Positions 18,442 to 23,605 of a stretch of 64,000 nucleotides of DNA are shown one piece after another. Below the pieces are notes generated by a model that saw only the letters and a list, made by a program, of their open reading frames with translations, had not been told where the DNA came from and did no database searches. The translations under genes were made by a program, and so were the position numbers. Location of the stretch: contig NZ_CP102602.1 in the NCBI RefSeq assembly GCF_024707485.1, positions 496,001-560,000 of the forward strand, given 5' to 3'. The stretch's first letter is position 1; every line of letters starts with the position of its first letter. The DNA is from Thermococcus thermotolerans. Lineage in GTDB: Archaea > Methanobacteriota_B > Thermococci > Thermococcales > Thermococcaceae.

Positions 18442-19584
18442 ATGAAGGCTGTTAAAGCCACCATTCTCTACGACGGTCTGGGGAACGTTCTCAGGGATGT
18501 GTACGTCGTTTTTGATAGGAACATAGTTGATGTAACGAAGGAAAAGCCGAAGGAAGCCGAAGTTATAGCCGAGGGCGTTGTTACACCCGCCTTCATAGAC
18601 GGCCACAGCCACATAGGAATGGAGCGCTACGGAGAGCCTTATCAGGAGGGCGAAGCAAACGAACAGATGGACGCAGTTCTACCGCTCGTGGATGCTCTCT
18701 ATTCAATCTACATGGACGACAAGGCCTTCAAGCACTCGATAGAGTTCGGCGTCCTGTACTCGTCCGTCCTCCCGGGAAGCGGAAACATCATAGGAGGAAA
18801 GGCGGTCTTCATAAGGAACTACGGCAGGGACATAGAAGATGCCTTCATCCAGTATGCGGGAGTTAAAGCGGCCTTCGGCTACAACCCGCGTTCCACCAAA
18901 GAGTGGAAGGGGACGAGGCCGAGCACGAGGATGGGTGCAATAGGGATACTCCTCAGCTGGCTCATAAAGACCAGGAACACCATAGCGCTCCTTGAGAAGG
19001 GCAAGAAGGATCCGGAGGAGGTCGAACCTACCGTTGAGGCACTCATACCAGTCCTCAAGGGCGAGGTCCCGCTCCGCGTCCACGTCCACAAGGAAGACGA
19101 CATAGCGGCCCTGCTCATGATAAAGCGGAAGTTCGGGCTCAAGATAACCATCGAGCACGCCGGCGACGTCCACAGCAGGGAGACCTTCGAGAAGATTAAG
19201 GCTGAAGGCGTTCCGGTAATCTACGGTCCCTTCGACAGCCTGCCTTACAAGGTCGAACTCAAGCACGAGGACTGGAAGAACGCGAGGTATTTACTCGAGG
19301 TCAAACCGCTCTTCGGCCTCATGAGCGACCATCCGGTCACGCTCCAGGCGAACCTCTACCTCCAGCTCAGGCACTTCATAAGGCTCGGCATGAGCAAGGA
19401 AGAGGCGATAAAGGTCATCACTTACAACAACGCGAAAATTTTAGGCGTTGACGACAGGCTCGGGAGCATAGAGAAGGGCAAGTGGGCCTCGCTGGTTGTC
19501 TGGAACGGAGATCCATTCCACATGGAGAACTACCCGACGCACGTCTTCGCGGAGGGAGAGCTTATTCATGAGGCAGATCACTGA
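18442..19584 (+). CDS. Amidohydrolase family protein
   Basis: A 380-residue metal-dependent hydrolase of the imidazolonepropionase-like amidohydrolase group. Metal ligands are seen in DGHSHIGME (HxH), LRVHVHKEDD, ITIEHAGD and LMSDHPVT; the composite beta domain lies at both ends (start VTPAFIDGH, end GSIEKGKWASLVVWNGDP). I start at the ATG preceded by GGTGACAACC rather than the GTG four codons upstream. The substrate cannot be named. It converges on the HepT/MntA pair with a 7-base overlap. Confidence 0.85.
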   Translation: MKAVKATILYDGLGNVLRDVYVVFDRNIVDVTKEKPKEAEVIAEGVVTPAFIDGHSHIGMERYGEPYQEGEANEQMDAVLPLVDALYSIYMDDKAFKHSIEFGVLYSSVLPGSGNIIGGKAVFIRNYGRDIEDAFIQYAGVKAAFGYNPRSTKEWKGTRPSTRMGAIGILLSWLIKTRNTIALLEKGKKDPEEVEPTVEALIPVLKGEVPLRVHVHKEDDIAALLMIKRKFGLKITIEHAGDVHSRETFEKIKAEGVPVIYGPFDSLPYKVELKHEDWKNARYLLEVKPLFGLMSDHPVTLQANLYLQLRHFIRLGMSKEEAIKVITYNNAKILGVDDRLGSIEKGKWASLVVWNGDPFHMENYPTHVFAEGELIHEADH

Positions 19585-19985
19585 CCTTCCAGCTTTTCAT
19601 ACTTTTCCACGAGCTTTATAACAATCTCGTATAGCTCATCAATTCTACCAAGACCCTCCCTCACAGCATCGAGGTTAAGTCTGTCATACTTATGAACAAT
19701 GGCATTTCTAAGTCCGTTGTACGCCCTCAAAAGTCCGGCTTCATTTTCGGAGATAACTTTTGCTTTTCTAAGCCGCTCGATGTTTGTATAATCGTCTTCA
19801 ACGGTCATGCCCAAGTCCTTAACGAGCATTGCAGTAATGTCCATTGCGATATCCACGCAGAGCTGGAGGGAGTAGAAGAGGGCCCTCTGAGTAACATCGT
19901 CCTTCATCTCATGGCTCGTTATAAACTCATACTCCTCCTCAAACCGCTCAAGCTTCTCTAAGTACCTCTGCCTTCTCACGGGCAC
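19578..19985 (-). CDS. hepT: HEPN-domain toxin HepT (DUF86 type)
   Basis: A 135-residue all-helical HEPN protein. The RNase motif Rx4HxY is seen as RNAIVHKY near residue 93. HepT toxins are nucleases held in check by the MNT partner, which in characterised pairs AMPylates the Tyr of this motif. The gene overlaps the upstream mntA by 38 bases, the usual tight layout. Its start MPVRRQ is the only good one near the expected N-terminus. Confidence 0.88.
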   Translation of the reverse strand: MPVRRQRYLEKLERFEEEYEFITSHEMKDDVTQRALFYSLQLCVDIAMDITAMLVKDLGMTVEDDYTNIERLRKAKVISENEAGLLRAYNGLRNAIVHKYDRLNLDAVREGLGRIDELYEIVIKLVEKYEKLEGQ

Positions 19986-20361
19986 GCCTCCTGAGTCTTA
20001 TCTTTTCCCTCACGCTCTCAAACTGGTTCTCCCTTATCCTGTGCTCCATGTCCCTCCACAGCTTCCGGAAGCGGTAGAAGTACTCGGAGAGCTCAAGCTC
20101 GTCGCCGTATATAACCTTGTGATTTTTGATTACCTCAATCTGAACGTAAAGTGGGAGCTCCTCAAAGACCTTAACATCGTATTTTCCACCGAGCTTTTTG
20201 AGGACTTCACGGCATACGCCGGGCTTTGGCTTAACGAGGCAGACGTCAACGTCGCTTCTGTTTGTGGCCTCTCCCTTAGCGTGGGACCCGTAGAGGAGAA
20301 TCCCCATGCACGAGTCTTTGAACTCTTGGAAGTCCCTGCGGAGCTGTGCCATGAGTTTCAT
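19948..20361 (-). CDS. mntA: MNT nucleotidyltransferase antitoxin MntA
   Basis: A 137-residue minimal nucleotidyltransferase. The catalytic GSx10DxD motif is intact (GSHAKGEATNRSDVD near residues 25-39), and a further Asp/Glu lies in the KVFEELPLYVQIEV strand. This supports an active AMPylating antitoxin for HepT rather than a degenerate one. The C-terminal half is a long basic helix. The ATG follows GGTGGTTCA. Confidence 0.88.
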   Translation of the reverse strand: MKLMAQLRRDFQEFKDSCMGILLYGSHAKGEATNRSDVDVCLVKPKPGVCREVLKKLGGKYDVKVFEELPLYVQIEVIKNHKVIYGDELELSEYFYRFRKLWRDMEHRIRENQFESVREKIRLRRRAREKAEVLREA

Positions 20362-20405: not shown

Positions 20406-21353
20406 TCAGCTCACCCTAAACTCAAACCCCCTCGCGAAGGTGTAAGCTTCTCTAAGCTCCGGCCTCTCCTTGAGGAAGCGGAGGATGTACTGGCCACAGT
20501 TCGAGCCGATGAGATTCTCTCTCGTGTCGCCGACGGATATGATGACATCGTAGCCGAGCCTTCTGAGGTCATCGACGAACTTCCTGTGCTTCATCGGAAG
20601 GCCAGTCTCAAGGTCCACGTCGTTGGTGAGCTTATTCTTTAGCACGCTCACCGTCGGGTTGAGCGGCGTTATCTTGATGAGGAAGTACTCCTTCGGGAAA
20701 TACTCGGCTATAACACTTGCATCGGCCTCGTTTTCCCTCGCCAAGGCGAAGTTGAGCGTAATCTTCTTGCCGCCCTCGTCGTAGAAGGCCTTTCCGTACT
20801 CGGCTATCCTCTCGAAGTCCCACTTCCTGACCGGGATTATCTCGTCCCTCTGCTCCGGGCTGGTCGAGTGTATTGAGAACTGGAGCTGGAAGTTGGTCGG
20901 GAAGGTCTCCTTCTTGAGTTCGAGGAGCTTTTCAAAGAACTTATCGGTTCCTATCGGAGCTATCGTTGAGAGCGAGGGATGGAAGTTCTCGTAGCGCTCG
21001 CCCAAAAGCCGCATCACCTCTATAACGGCCATGTTGAAGCTCGGCTCGCCCATGCGCGCGAACTGCACCTTGAACTTTCGGGTTTTCGGCTTCCCGTTCC
21101 AGCGCTTCTGAACCGGATACTCTATCTGCTCCATCAGTTCATCAAGGCTCAGCCTTCCCTTGTAGAAGAAGCCCGCGTCGCACATCTTACAGCCGATGGG
21201 ACAGCCGTTGAGTGATGAGACGATGAGCACCCATTTCTCGGCCGGGTTGTAGGTCGGGATCGATTCGACGAACTCGACGATGTTGCCCCTGGAAGTTTTC
21301 CCGATGTAAACGACCGCAACGTTGGGGTCGCCAACCTCACTCAGTATCTCCAT
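20406..21353 (-). CDS. RlmN/Cfr-like radical SAM protein
   Basis: A 315-residue radical SAM enzyme. The cluster motif is C51-P-I-G-C55-K-M-C58. MGEPSFN (101-107), FSIHSTSPEQRDEIIP (159-174) and the C-terminal NCGQYI with C286 align by eye with the MGEP, SLHA and ACGQL regions of the rRNA adenine methyltransferase RlmN, where the last Cys carries the methyl group. The second RlmN cysteine, just before the cluster motif, is Ile44 here. It is therefore a divergent relative, probably modifying RNA. The start overlaps the flavoprotein gene by 17 bases. Confidence 0.8.
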   Translation of the reverse strand: MEILSEVGDPNVAVVYIGKTSRGNIVEFVESIPTYNPAEKWVLIVSSLNGCPIGCKMCDAGFFYKGRLSLDELMEQIEYPVQKRWNGKPKTRKFKVQFARMGEPSFNMAVIEVMRLLGERYENFHPSLSTIAPIGTDKFFEKLLELKKETFPTNFQLQFSIHSTSPEQRDEIIPVRKWDFERIAEYGKAFYDEGGKKITLNFALARENEADASVIAEYFPKEYFLIKITPLNPTVSVLKNKLTNDVDLETGLPMKHRKFVDDLRRLGYDVIISVGDTRENLIGSNCGQYILRFLKERPELREAYTFARGFEFRVS

Positions 21354-22161
21354 ATCTCTCCCTCCTCCATATCACCATGGCGGTTTTGATTCCATCGGCT
21401 ATGGCCAGAGCTGTTTGTCTGTAAATTCCGTTCTTAACGTCCCCGACTAGGAAGAGGTTATCGTCCTTAATGCCCTCCACAAGTTCGATGTTCGGCACCC
21501 TGCCGATGGCCCCAAGGATCAGGTCAACCTCAAAATCGCCAGCGCTGGTCTTGGCTAAAAGCTTTCCCTTCCCGTTTATGGACTTTATTCCCCACACCTG
21601 CCCCATCAGCGTCTTGATGTTTGGCCGGCTCTTCACCAGTTCCTGAAGGTACGGCAGAGCCTTTGGCTCGCTCCTCATAAGGATTATCACATCGTCGCTG
21701 GTCTCACTCATCGTTAAAGCGTAGTCAAAGGCCACATCGCCGCCACCAATTATGAGAACCCTTCCGTAGTGCCGCCTCGGGACTTCAGCGACGTGGTAGA
21801 TTATCCCCTTGAATGGAAGCTTCTTCGGCCTCGTCCCCGTCGCAACCACGAGGTACTTGAAGCGGTGAACCCCGCTCGCGGTTTCGACTTCAAAGGACCC
21901 ACCGGCCTTTTTCACGGCCTTAACTTCTTCATAAATGATTTTCAGGTCATACCTCCTCACGTACTCCTCAAGGATTTCGACGACTTTCTCGCCCTTTATT
22001 CCGTCCGGGAAGAACATCGTGTTCTCGACGGAGTAGGCGTTCCTTATCAGCCCACCTATTCGGTCGCGCTCGAAGATTACGCTTTCAATGCCGTAGCGTG
22101 CCAGCTGGACAGCCGTCGCTATGCCGCCGATTCCAGCCCCGATTATTCCGACGAGAGCCAT
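21337..22161 (-). CDS. FAD/NAD(P)-dependent oxidoreductase, thioredoxin-reductase-like without CxxC
   Basis: A 274-residue flavoprotein. The FAD site is VGIIGAGIGGIATAVQLARYG (N-terminal), the NAD(P) site is VLIIGGGDVAFDYALTMS near residue 133, and the C-terminal FAD motif is NLFLVGDVKNG. The size and order match thioredoxin-reductase-like proteins, but the redox CxxC expected between the two sites is absent. It probably passes electrons to a partner protein. It overlaps both operon neighbours (19 and 17 bases), which suggests joint function with the radical SAM enzyme. Confidence 0.82.
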   Translation of the reverse strand: MALVGIIGAGIGGIATAVQLARYGIESVIFERDRIGGLIRNAYSVENTMFFPDGIKGEKVVEILEEYVRRYDLKIIYEEVKAVKKAGGSFEVETASGVHRFKYLVVATGTRPKKLPFKGIIYHVAEVPRRHYGRVLIIGGGDVAFDYALTMSETSDDVIILMRSEPKALPYLQELVKSRPNIKTLMGQVWGIKSINGKGKLLAKTSAGDFEVDLILGAIGRVPNIELVEGIKDDNLFLVGDVKNGIYRQTALAIADGIKTAMVIWRRERYGDTE

Positions 22162-22775
22162 TCCAACACCTCCAAGAGGAGCGGCGTGACCGCGAAGCCG
22201 TGGGAGAGGTTTCTGAGCGTAGCCTCGTGGAAGAGCCTGTTTTGTGTCAGCGTCCCATCGACGGGGAAGACGACGTTGAAGCCCCTCACGAAGGCCTCCC
22301 GGGCGGTCGTCTCACAGCAGAGGTGGGTCATGACGCCGGTGATGACTACCGTCTCAACGCCGAGCTTTCTGAGTCTCTCCTCGAGGTCAGTGCCATGAAA
22401 GGCGTCGTAGGTTCTCTTCTCAATGACGGTTCTGGCAAAGGGCTTGAACTCTTCAAGAAGTTCGTTCAGTGGGTCGTCTCTTGGCATATTGCCATCCCAC
22501 CAGCGGGTCATTATGTCGCCCCGATGGAAATGGCGGATGAAAATTATCGGAACGCCAAGCTTCTCCACCGCTCTGTAAAACTCTACCAGCCTCGGAACGA
22601 AGCGCGGCGCGGAGGGCAGGAACGCCCTGCTCTCGGGTGTGAGGAAATATGCCTGAAGGTCTATCGCGAGAACGGCGACCCTCTTGAAGGGCCGTATCTT
22701 CTCCCACTTTCTCCCCCTGAAGTACCGCTCCTTCATCTCCAAGATAAAGTCCTCGGTGAAGTAGTCTTCCTTCAT
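22143..22775 (-). CDS. Isochorismatase-family cysteine hydrolase
   Basis: A 210-residue cysteine hydrolase. Catalytic triad candidates are Asp in VLAIDLQAYFL, Lys in VIEKRTYDAFHGTDLEE and Cys in GVMTHLCCETTAREA. The family covers nicotinamidases, isochorismatases and N-carbamoyl hydrolases; a metal site of nicotinamidase type is not obvious, so the substrate stays open. It is the first gene of the three-gene minus-strand operon with the flavoprotein and radical SAM genes. Confidence 0.88.
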   Translation of the reverse strand: MKEDYFTEDFILEMKERYFRGRKWEKIRPFKRVAVLAIDLQAYFLTPESRAFLPSAPRFVPRLVEFYRAVEKLGVPIIFIRHFHRGDIMTRWWDGNMPRDDPLNELLEEFKPFARTVIEKRTYDAFHGTDLEERLRKLGVETVVITGVMTHLCCETTAREAFVRGFNVVFPVDGTLTQNRLFHEATLRNLSHGFAVTPLLLEVLEWLSSE

Positions 22776-22798: not shown

Positions 22799-23605
22799 TT
22801 AAAGGCTTATCCCCCTCGTCATTGCGCCGTCTATGACCACCGTCGAGCCGAGCATGTACTCTGCCTCATCGCTCAGGAGAAAAGCTACGAGGGATCCGAG
22901 CTCGTCCCATCTGCCAGTCCTGTGGAGGGGCGTTCTGCCCAGCACTTCCCGCTCCCAGGTCTCCTCAAAGGGTTCTCCCCTCGACTCGGCGACTGCCCTA
23001 AGGTTCTCCCTCGCGCCTGGCGTATCAAAGCTGCCGAGAAGGACGGAGTATGCCCTTATTCCCCTCTTCCCGTAGGTTCTCGAAACGCTTTTGGCAAGCT
23101 GAACGAGGCCGGCCCTCGTAACATCCGCCAGAACCAGCGGCGGCATTGGCTCCTTTATCGAGACCGAGTTGAGGTAAACGAGAACACCCCGATGTTTCTT
23201 TTCAAGCCACGTCTGAACGAGGAGGGTCGTCAGGTAGCCTGGGGCGACTGTATGCAGGGCCGAAGCCTCAATCCAGTCGATGTAATCTGCCTCGTGGAGC
23301 AGACACGGCTCGCAGGATACGTTGGGGGCGTTCCAGACGAGGGCGTTAACCCCGTTCAAAAGCTCCCAGCTCTCTTTAACTAGGTTCTCCAGTTCGTGCT
23401 GGTCAAAAAGGTTGGCCCTAATGGAATAAACTTCGCCGTAGCTCGAAAGCTCATCCAGCGCCTTCTTCAGGTTCTCTTCGCTCCGCGAGCTTATAACGAC
23501 TCTCGCGTTCCTCTTCAACAGTTCCCGCGCCACGTTGAACCCTATTCCACGTGATGAAGCCGTGATTATCACACCCAAGCCCTTGAGGTCTATCTCAACA
23601 CTCAT
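22799..23605 (-). CDS. SDR family oxidoreductase lacking the usual Tyr-Lys pair
   Basis: A 268-residue Rossmann-fold protein. The cofactor motif is ITASSRGIGFNVAREL and the Ser strand is YLNSVSIKEPMPPL. Where YxxxK is expected the sequence is ADVTR, in VLADVTRAGLVQLAKS, so the general-base Tyr and Lys are absent. Some FabG-like SDR subfamilies share this pattern. The C-terminus SDEAEYMLGSTVVIDGAM is normal. It has its own promoter (TTTATTAA on the minus strand, about 23627-23634). Confidence 0.82.
   Translation of the reverse strand: MSVEIDLKGLGVIITASSRGIGFNVARELLKRNARVVISSRSEENLKKALDELSSYGEVYSIRANLFDQHELENLVKESWELLNGVNALVWNAPNVSCEPCLLHEADYIDWIEASALHTVAPGYLTTLLVQTWLEKKHRGVLVYLNSVSIKEPMPPLVLADVTRAGLVQLAKSVSRTYGKRGIRAYSVLLGSFDTPGARENLRAVAESRGEPFEETWEREVLGRTPLHRTGRWDELGSLVAFLLSDEAEYMLGSTVVIDGAMTRGISL

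Follow-up and report, generated by a model that had tools for sequence, protein, structure and literature searches.

Class A radical SAM methylases are represented by RlmN, the C2-methyltransferase for 23S rRNA A2503 and tRNA A37, and Cfr, the C8-methyltransferase for 23S rRNA A2503. The unifying point is the use of two conserved cysteines, which form part of the definition of the class (PMC9692996), alongside a CX3CX2C motif for the [4Fe-4S] cluster. In RlmN, the C-terminal cysteine (Cys355 in E. coli), deprotonated by Glu105, is methylated, activated by the radical and added to the base; the second cysteine (Cys118) then removes the ring proton so that the C-S bond breaks (PMC9692996; PMC13001441, a preprint). 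Cfr uses Cys105 and Cys338 in the same layout. The second, 'resolving' cysteine is now seen mainly as the base that takes the proton from the substrate carbon so that the adduct fragments, rather than as a disulfide partner, and in RlmN and Cfr its mutation to Ala traps the enzyme in a covalent adduct with its RNA. This article examines a relative from the heat-loving archaeon Thermococcus thermotolerans that keeps the first of these cysteines but lacks the second, and gives an overview of related enzymes in archaea, bacteria and phages.

The window, i.e. the whole stretch of 64,000 nucleotides that was analysed, lies at 496001-560000 of a 2.07-Mb single-contig genome. The gene in question begins with ATG, preceded by a GGAGG stretch, and encodes a radical SAM protein (PF04055) of 315 residues; outside this genome, the best named match is from a Thermococcus MAG (77% identical). 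A sequence-only reading had proposed that the protein resembles RlmN/Cfr in its cluster motif, an MGEP and an SIHS motif and a C-terminal NCGQ, but has Ile44 in place of the second cysteine. This observation is confirmed, and it is fixed in the family. MGEP is found at residues 101-104 and SIHS at 160-163, and the protein has exactly four cysteines, namely C51, C55, C58 and C286. The features are collected in Table 1.

Table 1. Positions of features in the window and in phage loci (numbered L).
Feature	Location	Strand	Remark
Radical SAM gene	window 20406-21353	-	315 aa, RlmN-related, without the resolving cysteine; last gene of the operon
CX3CX2C motif	window 21180-21203	-	codons C51 (21201-21203), C55 (21189-21191), C58 (21180-21182)
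Ile44 codon	window 21222-21224	-	position of the RlmN resolving cysteine
Glu27 codon	window 21273-21275	-	aligned with RlmN Glu105
Cys286 codon	window 20496-20498	-	in GSNCGQY; aligned with RlmN Cys355
Arg100 codon	window 21054-21056	-	characteristic of the group without the resolving cysteine
Lys227 codon	window 20673-20675	-	characteristic of the group without the resolving cysteine
Flavoprotein gene	window 21337-22161	-	TrxR-like, NAD(P)H/FAD, 274 aa, no cysteine; overlaps the radical SAM gene by 17 nt (21337-21353)
Hydrolase gene	window 22143-22775	-	isochorismatase-fold cysteine hydrolase (D39/K120/C153), 210 aa; overlaps the flavoprotein gene by 19 nt
Short-chain dehydrogenase gene	window 22799-23605	-	23 nt upstream of the hydrolase gene
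HepT/MntA-like toxin-antitoxin pair	window 19578-20361	-	directly downstream of the radical SAM gene; the HepT model passes its cut-off, the MntA model does not
Split phage enzyme	L267:5833-6795
Split phage enzyme	L269:5836-6758
Split phage enzyme	L271:5830-7288
Split phage enzyme	L272:2830-4173
Split phage enzyme	L273:2833-3913		Vibrio phage D479; two tandem tails
Split phage enzymes	L278-L356
CGQ tail in one frame with a second, different radical SAM protein	L343:6124-7116		internal Met before the tail; a fusion or a read-through frame

In a joint alignment of 21 family members with 14 bacterial RlmN proteins from host genomes of the family, I44 falls in the column that is Cys in 14 of 14 RlmN, C286 in the methyl-acceptor column (14 of 14) and E27 in the column of Glu105 (14 of 14). 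The stretch between E27 and I44 is four residues longer than in RlmN, so that the choice of E27 rather than E30 as the Glu105 equivalent depends on the alignment. Among the loci collected, 212 hits of 250 bits or more reduce to 132 distinct rows of at least 285 residues; in these, position 44 is I in 109, L in 9, M in 7, T in 5 and V in 2, and never Cys. The four cysteines, E27, D59, K95, R100, Q156, Q158, H162, K197, K227, N232 and E279 are present in 132 of 132; in the CGQ tail the Gly is likewise kept in 132 of 132 and the Gln in 121 of 132. As 70 of 132 proteins have no further cysteine, no other conserved cysteine in the protein takes the place of the missing one. Nor do the partner proteins offer a substitute; the flavoprotein has no invariant cysteine (the commonest column has Cys in 34 of 65 rows, and the window copy has none), and C153 of the hydrolase is its own catalytic residue.

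The protein is not an RlmN. The best NCBIfam hit is RlmN (TIGR00048), but at 52.3 bits against a curated cut-off of 290, and all 49 members of one family alignment match that model only weakly (best E 1.2e-18). For Cfr the score is 42.6 bits, and the scores are below the cut-offs of the three Cfr models listed. The predicted structure is confident (pLDDT 94.7, pTM 0.92); residues 1-292 match RlmN best (Z 26.4, 266 aligned, 2.8 Å), followed by Cfr (Z 19.3), with the next folds at Z 14.8. The model aligns from E. coli RlmN residue 80 onwards, so the N-terminal HhH RNA-binding domain is missing. In a first tree, the family forms its own group (100/99) on a long stem, although this tree had three distant outgroups and carried a long-branch warning; a second tree, described below, also places it outside the RlmN group. 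Placement outside the RlmN/Cfr clade had been named beforehand as evidence against the earlier interpretation; as neither tree contained a Cfr sequence, separation from Cfr rests on profile scores and fold rank alone.

These findings also bear on the possibility that the protein is still an RNA methylase of the m2A or m8A type, with another residue as the base. This reading is favoured by the overall predicted RlmN fold and by RlmN being the best NCBIfam hit, but it appears very unlikely. Besides the lack of the HhH domain, the median pI is 7.2 (80 members) against 8.7 for RlmN (14), albeit with overlapping ranges, and 15 of 24 host genomes searched also carry a true RlmN over the cut-off; the six archaeal ones do not. 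One Methanoculleus genome (locus L144) holds, besides the family member, an RlmN-like protein without the N-terminal domain that has both cysteines; no other of 120 genomes drawn from that phylum had a TIGR00048 match at 1e-20. Presence is patchy, with the full-length gene in 17 of 61 genomes of the genus (an automatic tally of 53 of 61 is made up mostly of weak hits to another radical SAM protein). Two further genomes of the genus (loci L237 and L236) keep only fragments with stops, between genes that flank the operon elsewhere, with the relative of the short-chain dehydrogenase gene still in place. This marks an accessory function.

The gene closes an operon, in the usual order hydrolase, flavoprotein, radical SAM, which is shared by archaea and many bacterial phyla. 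This was established for 80 loci from GTDB genomes (the best 80 of 278 confirmed), spread over Thermococci, DHVE2 and other Thermoplasmata, Thermotogota, Bacteroidota, Chloroflexota, Cloacimonadota, Methanomicrobia and more. Where enough upstream sequence is on the contig, the flavoprotein is adjacent in 63 of 68 loci and the hydrolase in place in 51 of 65; one locus, L060, counts as lacking the flavoprotein although BLAST finds it. The commonest spacing between flavoprotein and radical SAM gene is a 4-nt overlap (28 of 62). Of ten genomes in which BLAST saw no flavoprotein at the locus (several loci end at the contig edge), eight have a homologue of 46-54% identity elsewhere, one has a piece beside the radical SAM gene at a contig end, and one has nothing close; in six of the eight the hydrolase lies beside the homologue, and in two it was not seen in the short stretch examined. 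Prevalence is uneven: 23 of 115 genomes of the own phylum, 44 of 101 in the phylum of a Thermosipho, 7 of 395 in that of a Bacteroidales, 4 of 301 in that of a Chloroflexi and 2 of 246 in that of a Methanoculleus, with the last four tallies including genomes already known to carry the gene. No match was found on plasmids. A mirror-tree comparison gave 0.69 for radical SAM protein and flavoprotein and 0.72 for radical SAM protein and hydrolase; as the control with RlmN gave 0.63-0.67, this test does not discriminate.

The flavoprotein has the FAD and NAD(P)H Rossmann motifs of thioredoxin reductase but lacks its CxxC pair; only 2 of 41 rows have a CxxC anywhere, neither in the region of the TrxR pair as judged by eye. 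By inference, it should therefore pass electrons to something outside itself. The hydrolase model (pLDDT 97.0) has the predicted isochorismatase/cysteine-amidase fold (Z 26.4) and the Asp-Lys-Cys triad, with K120 and C153 invariant and D39 at least 90% in 35 rows. Among such enzymes (maleamate amidase, biuret hydrolase, N-carbamoylsarcosine amidase; Z about 22-26), the best hits, of several functions, lie within about one and a half Z units, so no substrate follows, and the protein is below the curated cut-off of each NCBIfam model it matches. The nicotinamidase metal-site motif DWH is absent (0 of 35).

Beyond the three genes, the neighbours of the 80 cellular loci showed nothing recurrent that could be tied to a pathway. 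An MttB-type methyltransferase gene lies upstream of the operon in L055, L077 and L078; in L055, the only one of the three on which Pfam was run, a corrinoid protein and a homocysteine-methyltransferase domain precede it. In two Bacteroidota genomes (L251 and L252), the radical SAM gene overlaps an acyl-CoA ligase gene by 4 nt in a run with HPPD and a homogentisate-dioxygenase-like gene, and a search of these genomes found only TrxR-level matches (28-31%) to the flavoprotein. These cases were too few to name a pathway.

The nearest relatives found are phage proteins. A fold search of viral models gave two phage proteins first, one of them named COG0820, and the closest PHROG is phrog_24834 (108 bits, against 52 for RlmN; unknown function); no viral contig with the cellular alignment was confirmed. 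Phage records and IMG/VR contigs show three kinds. The Versailles type has Thr at position 44 and a TCGN tail in cis (22 of 22 loci). The two-cysteine type has Cys at the resolving position (12 of 12) and a CGQ tail in cis (6 of 6 looked at). In the split type the enzyme is in two pieces: cores have Gly at position 44 (84 of 84) and no tail in cis (84 of 84), while a separate small ORF with the CGQ cysteine, always on the same strand, is found in 75 of 84 (one of 85 loci was missed by the core pattern). These loci are not all independent, 79 cores giving 65 distinct rows. They include those of a crAss-like phage of Bacteroides and of a Moorella phage. The 59 distinct tails share an Ala-x-Ala-Thr, a Glu three residues on, and Ala-Cys-Gly-Gln without exception. 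Profile comparison tiles the window protein; the split core matches residues 1-250 (E 3e-47) and the small protein residues 255-294 (E 3e-4, probability 42), the latter match being weak, as expected of so short a piece. A search of the literature brought up no paper recognised as describing the operon, the missing cysteine or the split phage form, as judged from titles and the beginnings of abstracts, with subscription papers not covered.

The split form raises the possibility that the C286 tail is a carrier on which the product stays. In phages, the small protein would leave with the adduct or would itself be the substrate, as in peptide maturation; in the cellular enzyme, partner proteins would release the product. 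The two tandem tails of one phage, and the further radical SAM enzymes and small class I methyltransferase near some split loci, are in line with this view. However, the tail is in cis in the window protein and in all 132 relatives counted, which would make the enzyme single-turnover unless the product is released, and the small protein matches the enzyme's own C-terminus, though weakly, as a plain split gene would. This alternative is considered improbable, although it is not excluded.

When the tail is removed, a tree of 52 rows shows a single branch (99/98) that separates RlmN, an archaeal RlmN-like protein and the two-cysteine phage enzymes from the window family, the Versailles type and the split type; the window family and the Versailles type are sisters (99/96). 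The tree is unrooted, and is compatible with loss of the cysteine here or its gain on the RlmN side. Two residues follow this branch almost perfectly among the distinct rows picked up. R100 is present in 132 of 132 of the window family, 65 of 65 split cores and 19 of 21 Versailles-type proteins, against 0 of 12 two-cysteine phage enzymes and 0 of 15 RlmN rows (14 bacterial, one archaeal); K227 is present in 132 of 132, 65 of 65 and 21 of 21, against 0 of 12 and 0 of 15. In the model, R100 follows strand 93-98 and K227 lies in strand 224-230; judging from strand assignment and alignment only, both probably face the barrel.

Other residues do not follow the branch. In the Versailles type, the E27 column is P in 12, E in 3, K in 3 and D in 3 of 21 (the N-terminal alignment may be poor there), and the N232 column is His in 21 of 21; D59 is Ala in 64 of 65 split cores. 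That E27 and N232 are not kept in the Versailles type would suit another reading, in which C286 is not a methyl carrier but a hydrogen-atom donor or relay, like the critical cysteine of spore photoproduct lyase (a comparison made in PMC9692996), the enzyme being a radical isomerase, lyase or reductase whose thiyl radical the flavoprotein re-reduces. A single conserved cysteine without a resolving partner suits such a role, and the tail around C286 is rewritten (GSNCGQY against AACGQL-type tails). In the window's own family, however, the Glu that activates the acceptor cysteine in RlmN, the acceptor CG pair and N232 are 132 of 132, and the predicted fold is far closer to RlmN (Z 26.4) than to spore photoproduct lyase (Z 11.9). 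This reading is unlikely, although it is not excluded.

A hint of the substrate comes from split-type phages only. Nicotinamide phosphoribosyltransferase (NAMPT) and a NadM-Nudix protein, as identified by Pfam and often found together, lie within 19 and 20 of 84 split-type loci, respectively (among the loci with NAMPT nearby are L281, L284, L309, L312, L316, L319, L326, L331, L334 and L340). Placement was examined in 50 of the 79 split loci from viral contigs (records of 40 kb or more, without L329, L350, L354 and L355, taken as near-copies). Of these, 20 carry NAMPT over the cut-off; in 13 it lies inside the retrieved locus of about 10.8 kb, where 2.2 would be expected at random placement, and without three near-duplicate records, picked by eye, the figures are 10 of 17 against 1.7. 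The length of this stretch was not chosen beforehand for the test. Neighbourhood controls with PhoH and thymidylate synthase gave 4 and 0 loci, too few to use. The hint does not extend to the other groups, as NAMPT is nearby in 0 of 80 cellular loci, 0 of 22 Versailles-type loci and 1 of 12 two-cysteine phage loci; the lack of the nicotinamidase DWH motif in the hydrolase also speaks against it.

The most likely reading, to which we give a probability of about one half, is that the gene encodes a member of an apparently undescribed group of RlmN-related enzymes that has the first half of class A chemistry but not the second-half thiol. The window protein keeps the residues of the first part that could be aligned (E27, C286, N232 and the cluster cysteines) and lacks the one of the second. 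In this view, C286, activated by E27, takes a methyl group from a first SAM; a second SAM, cleaved at the cluster, gives the 5'-deoxyadenosyl radical, which makes a methylene radical on S-methyl-C286. This would add to an sp2 carbon of a small, probably anionic and electron-poor substrate held by R100, K227 and neighbouring polar residues. The adduct would then break down without a thiol base, helped by its own acidity or by another residue (K227 is the candidate shared by the whole group; D59 and E30 are candidates in this family only), freeing a methylated product and the C286 thiyl, which the cluster or the flavoprotein would re-reduce. As the Ala mutants of RlmN and Cfr are trapped, such an enzyme needs a substitute for the thiol that is at present only guessed. 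The flavoprotein and the hydrolase would act on the same metabolite or on electron supply. A pyridine compound of the nicotinamide/NAD kind is the most specific substrate class hinted at, through phage gene neighbourhoods only; by chemical inference, a pyridinium ring would be a good acceptor for a methylene radical, and its adduct would lose a proton easily, which could make a thiol base unnecessary. The predicted fold, the alignment with its conserved residues, the operon, the tree and the phage split rest directly on the analysis, whereas each step of this cycle, including methylation of C286 and catalysis itself, is inferred, as are the substrate class and the roles of the partners.

The interpretation in the sequence-only reading is thus partly supported. 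It had inferred that either another residue resolves the adduct or the enzyme does different chemistry on RNA, and that the overlapping flavoprotein could supply electrons. The missing cysteine does imply another route of resolution or other chemistry, but membership of RlmN and an RNA substrate are not supported; the flavoprotein is a consistent partner, and electron supply by it remains a possibility. A more far-reaching proposal, speculative and unlikely on present evidence, is that the group without the resolving cysteine is a new mechanistic class of radical SAM methyl transfer, in which the S-methyl-cysteine tail is a separable carrier (in cis in the archaeal and bacterial operon, in trans on a protein of about 40-100 aa in phages) and the acceptor is the pyridine ring of nicotinamide/NAD, so that the operon would make or handle a C-methylated nicotinamide cofactor or signal.

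Class A radical SAM methylases are described as using two cysteines, yet a whole group found in archaea, many bacterial phyla and phages lacks the second one. This makes a mechanistic question testable, namely what replaces the thiol base, and whether the methyl carrier is separable. The phage version, with the carrier cysteine on a tiny separate protein, would let methylation of the carrier, the radical step and product release be studied apart, and the conserved three-gene operon points to an unmapped small-molecule pathway in anaerobes.
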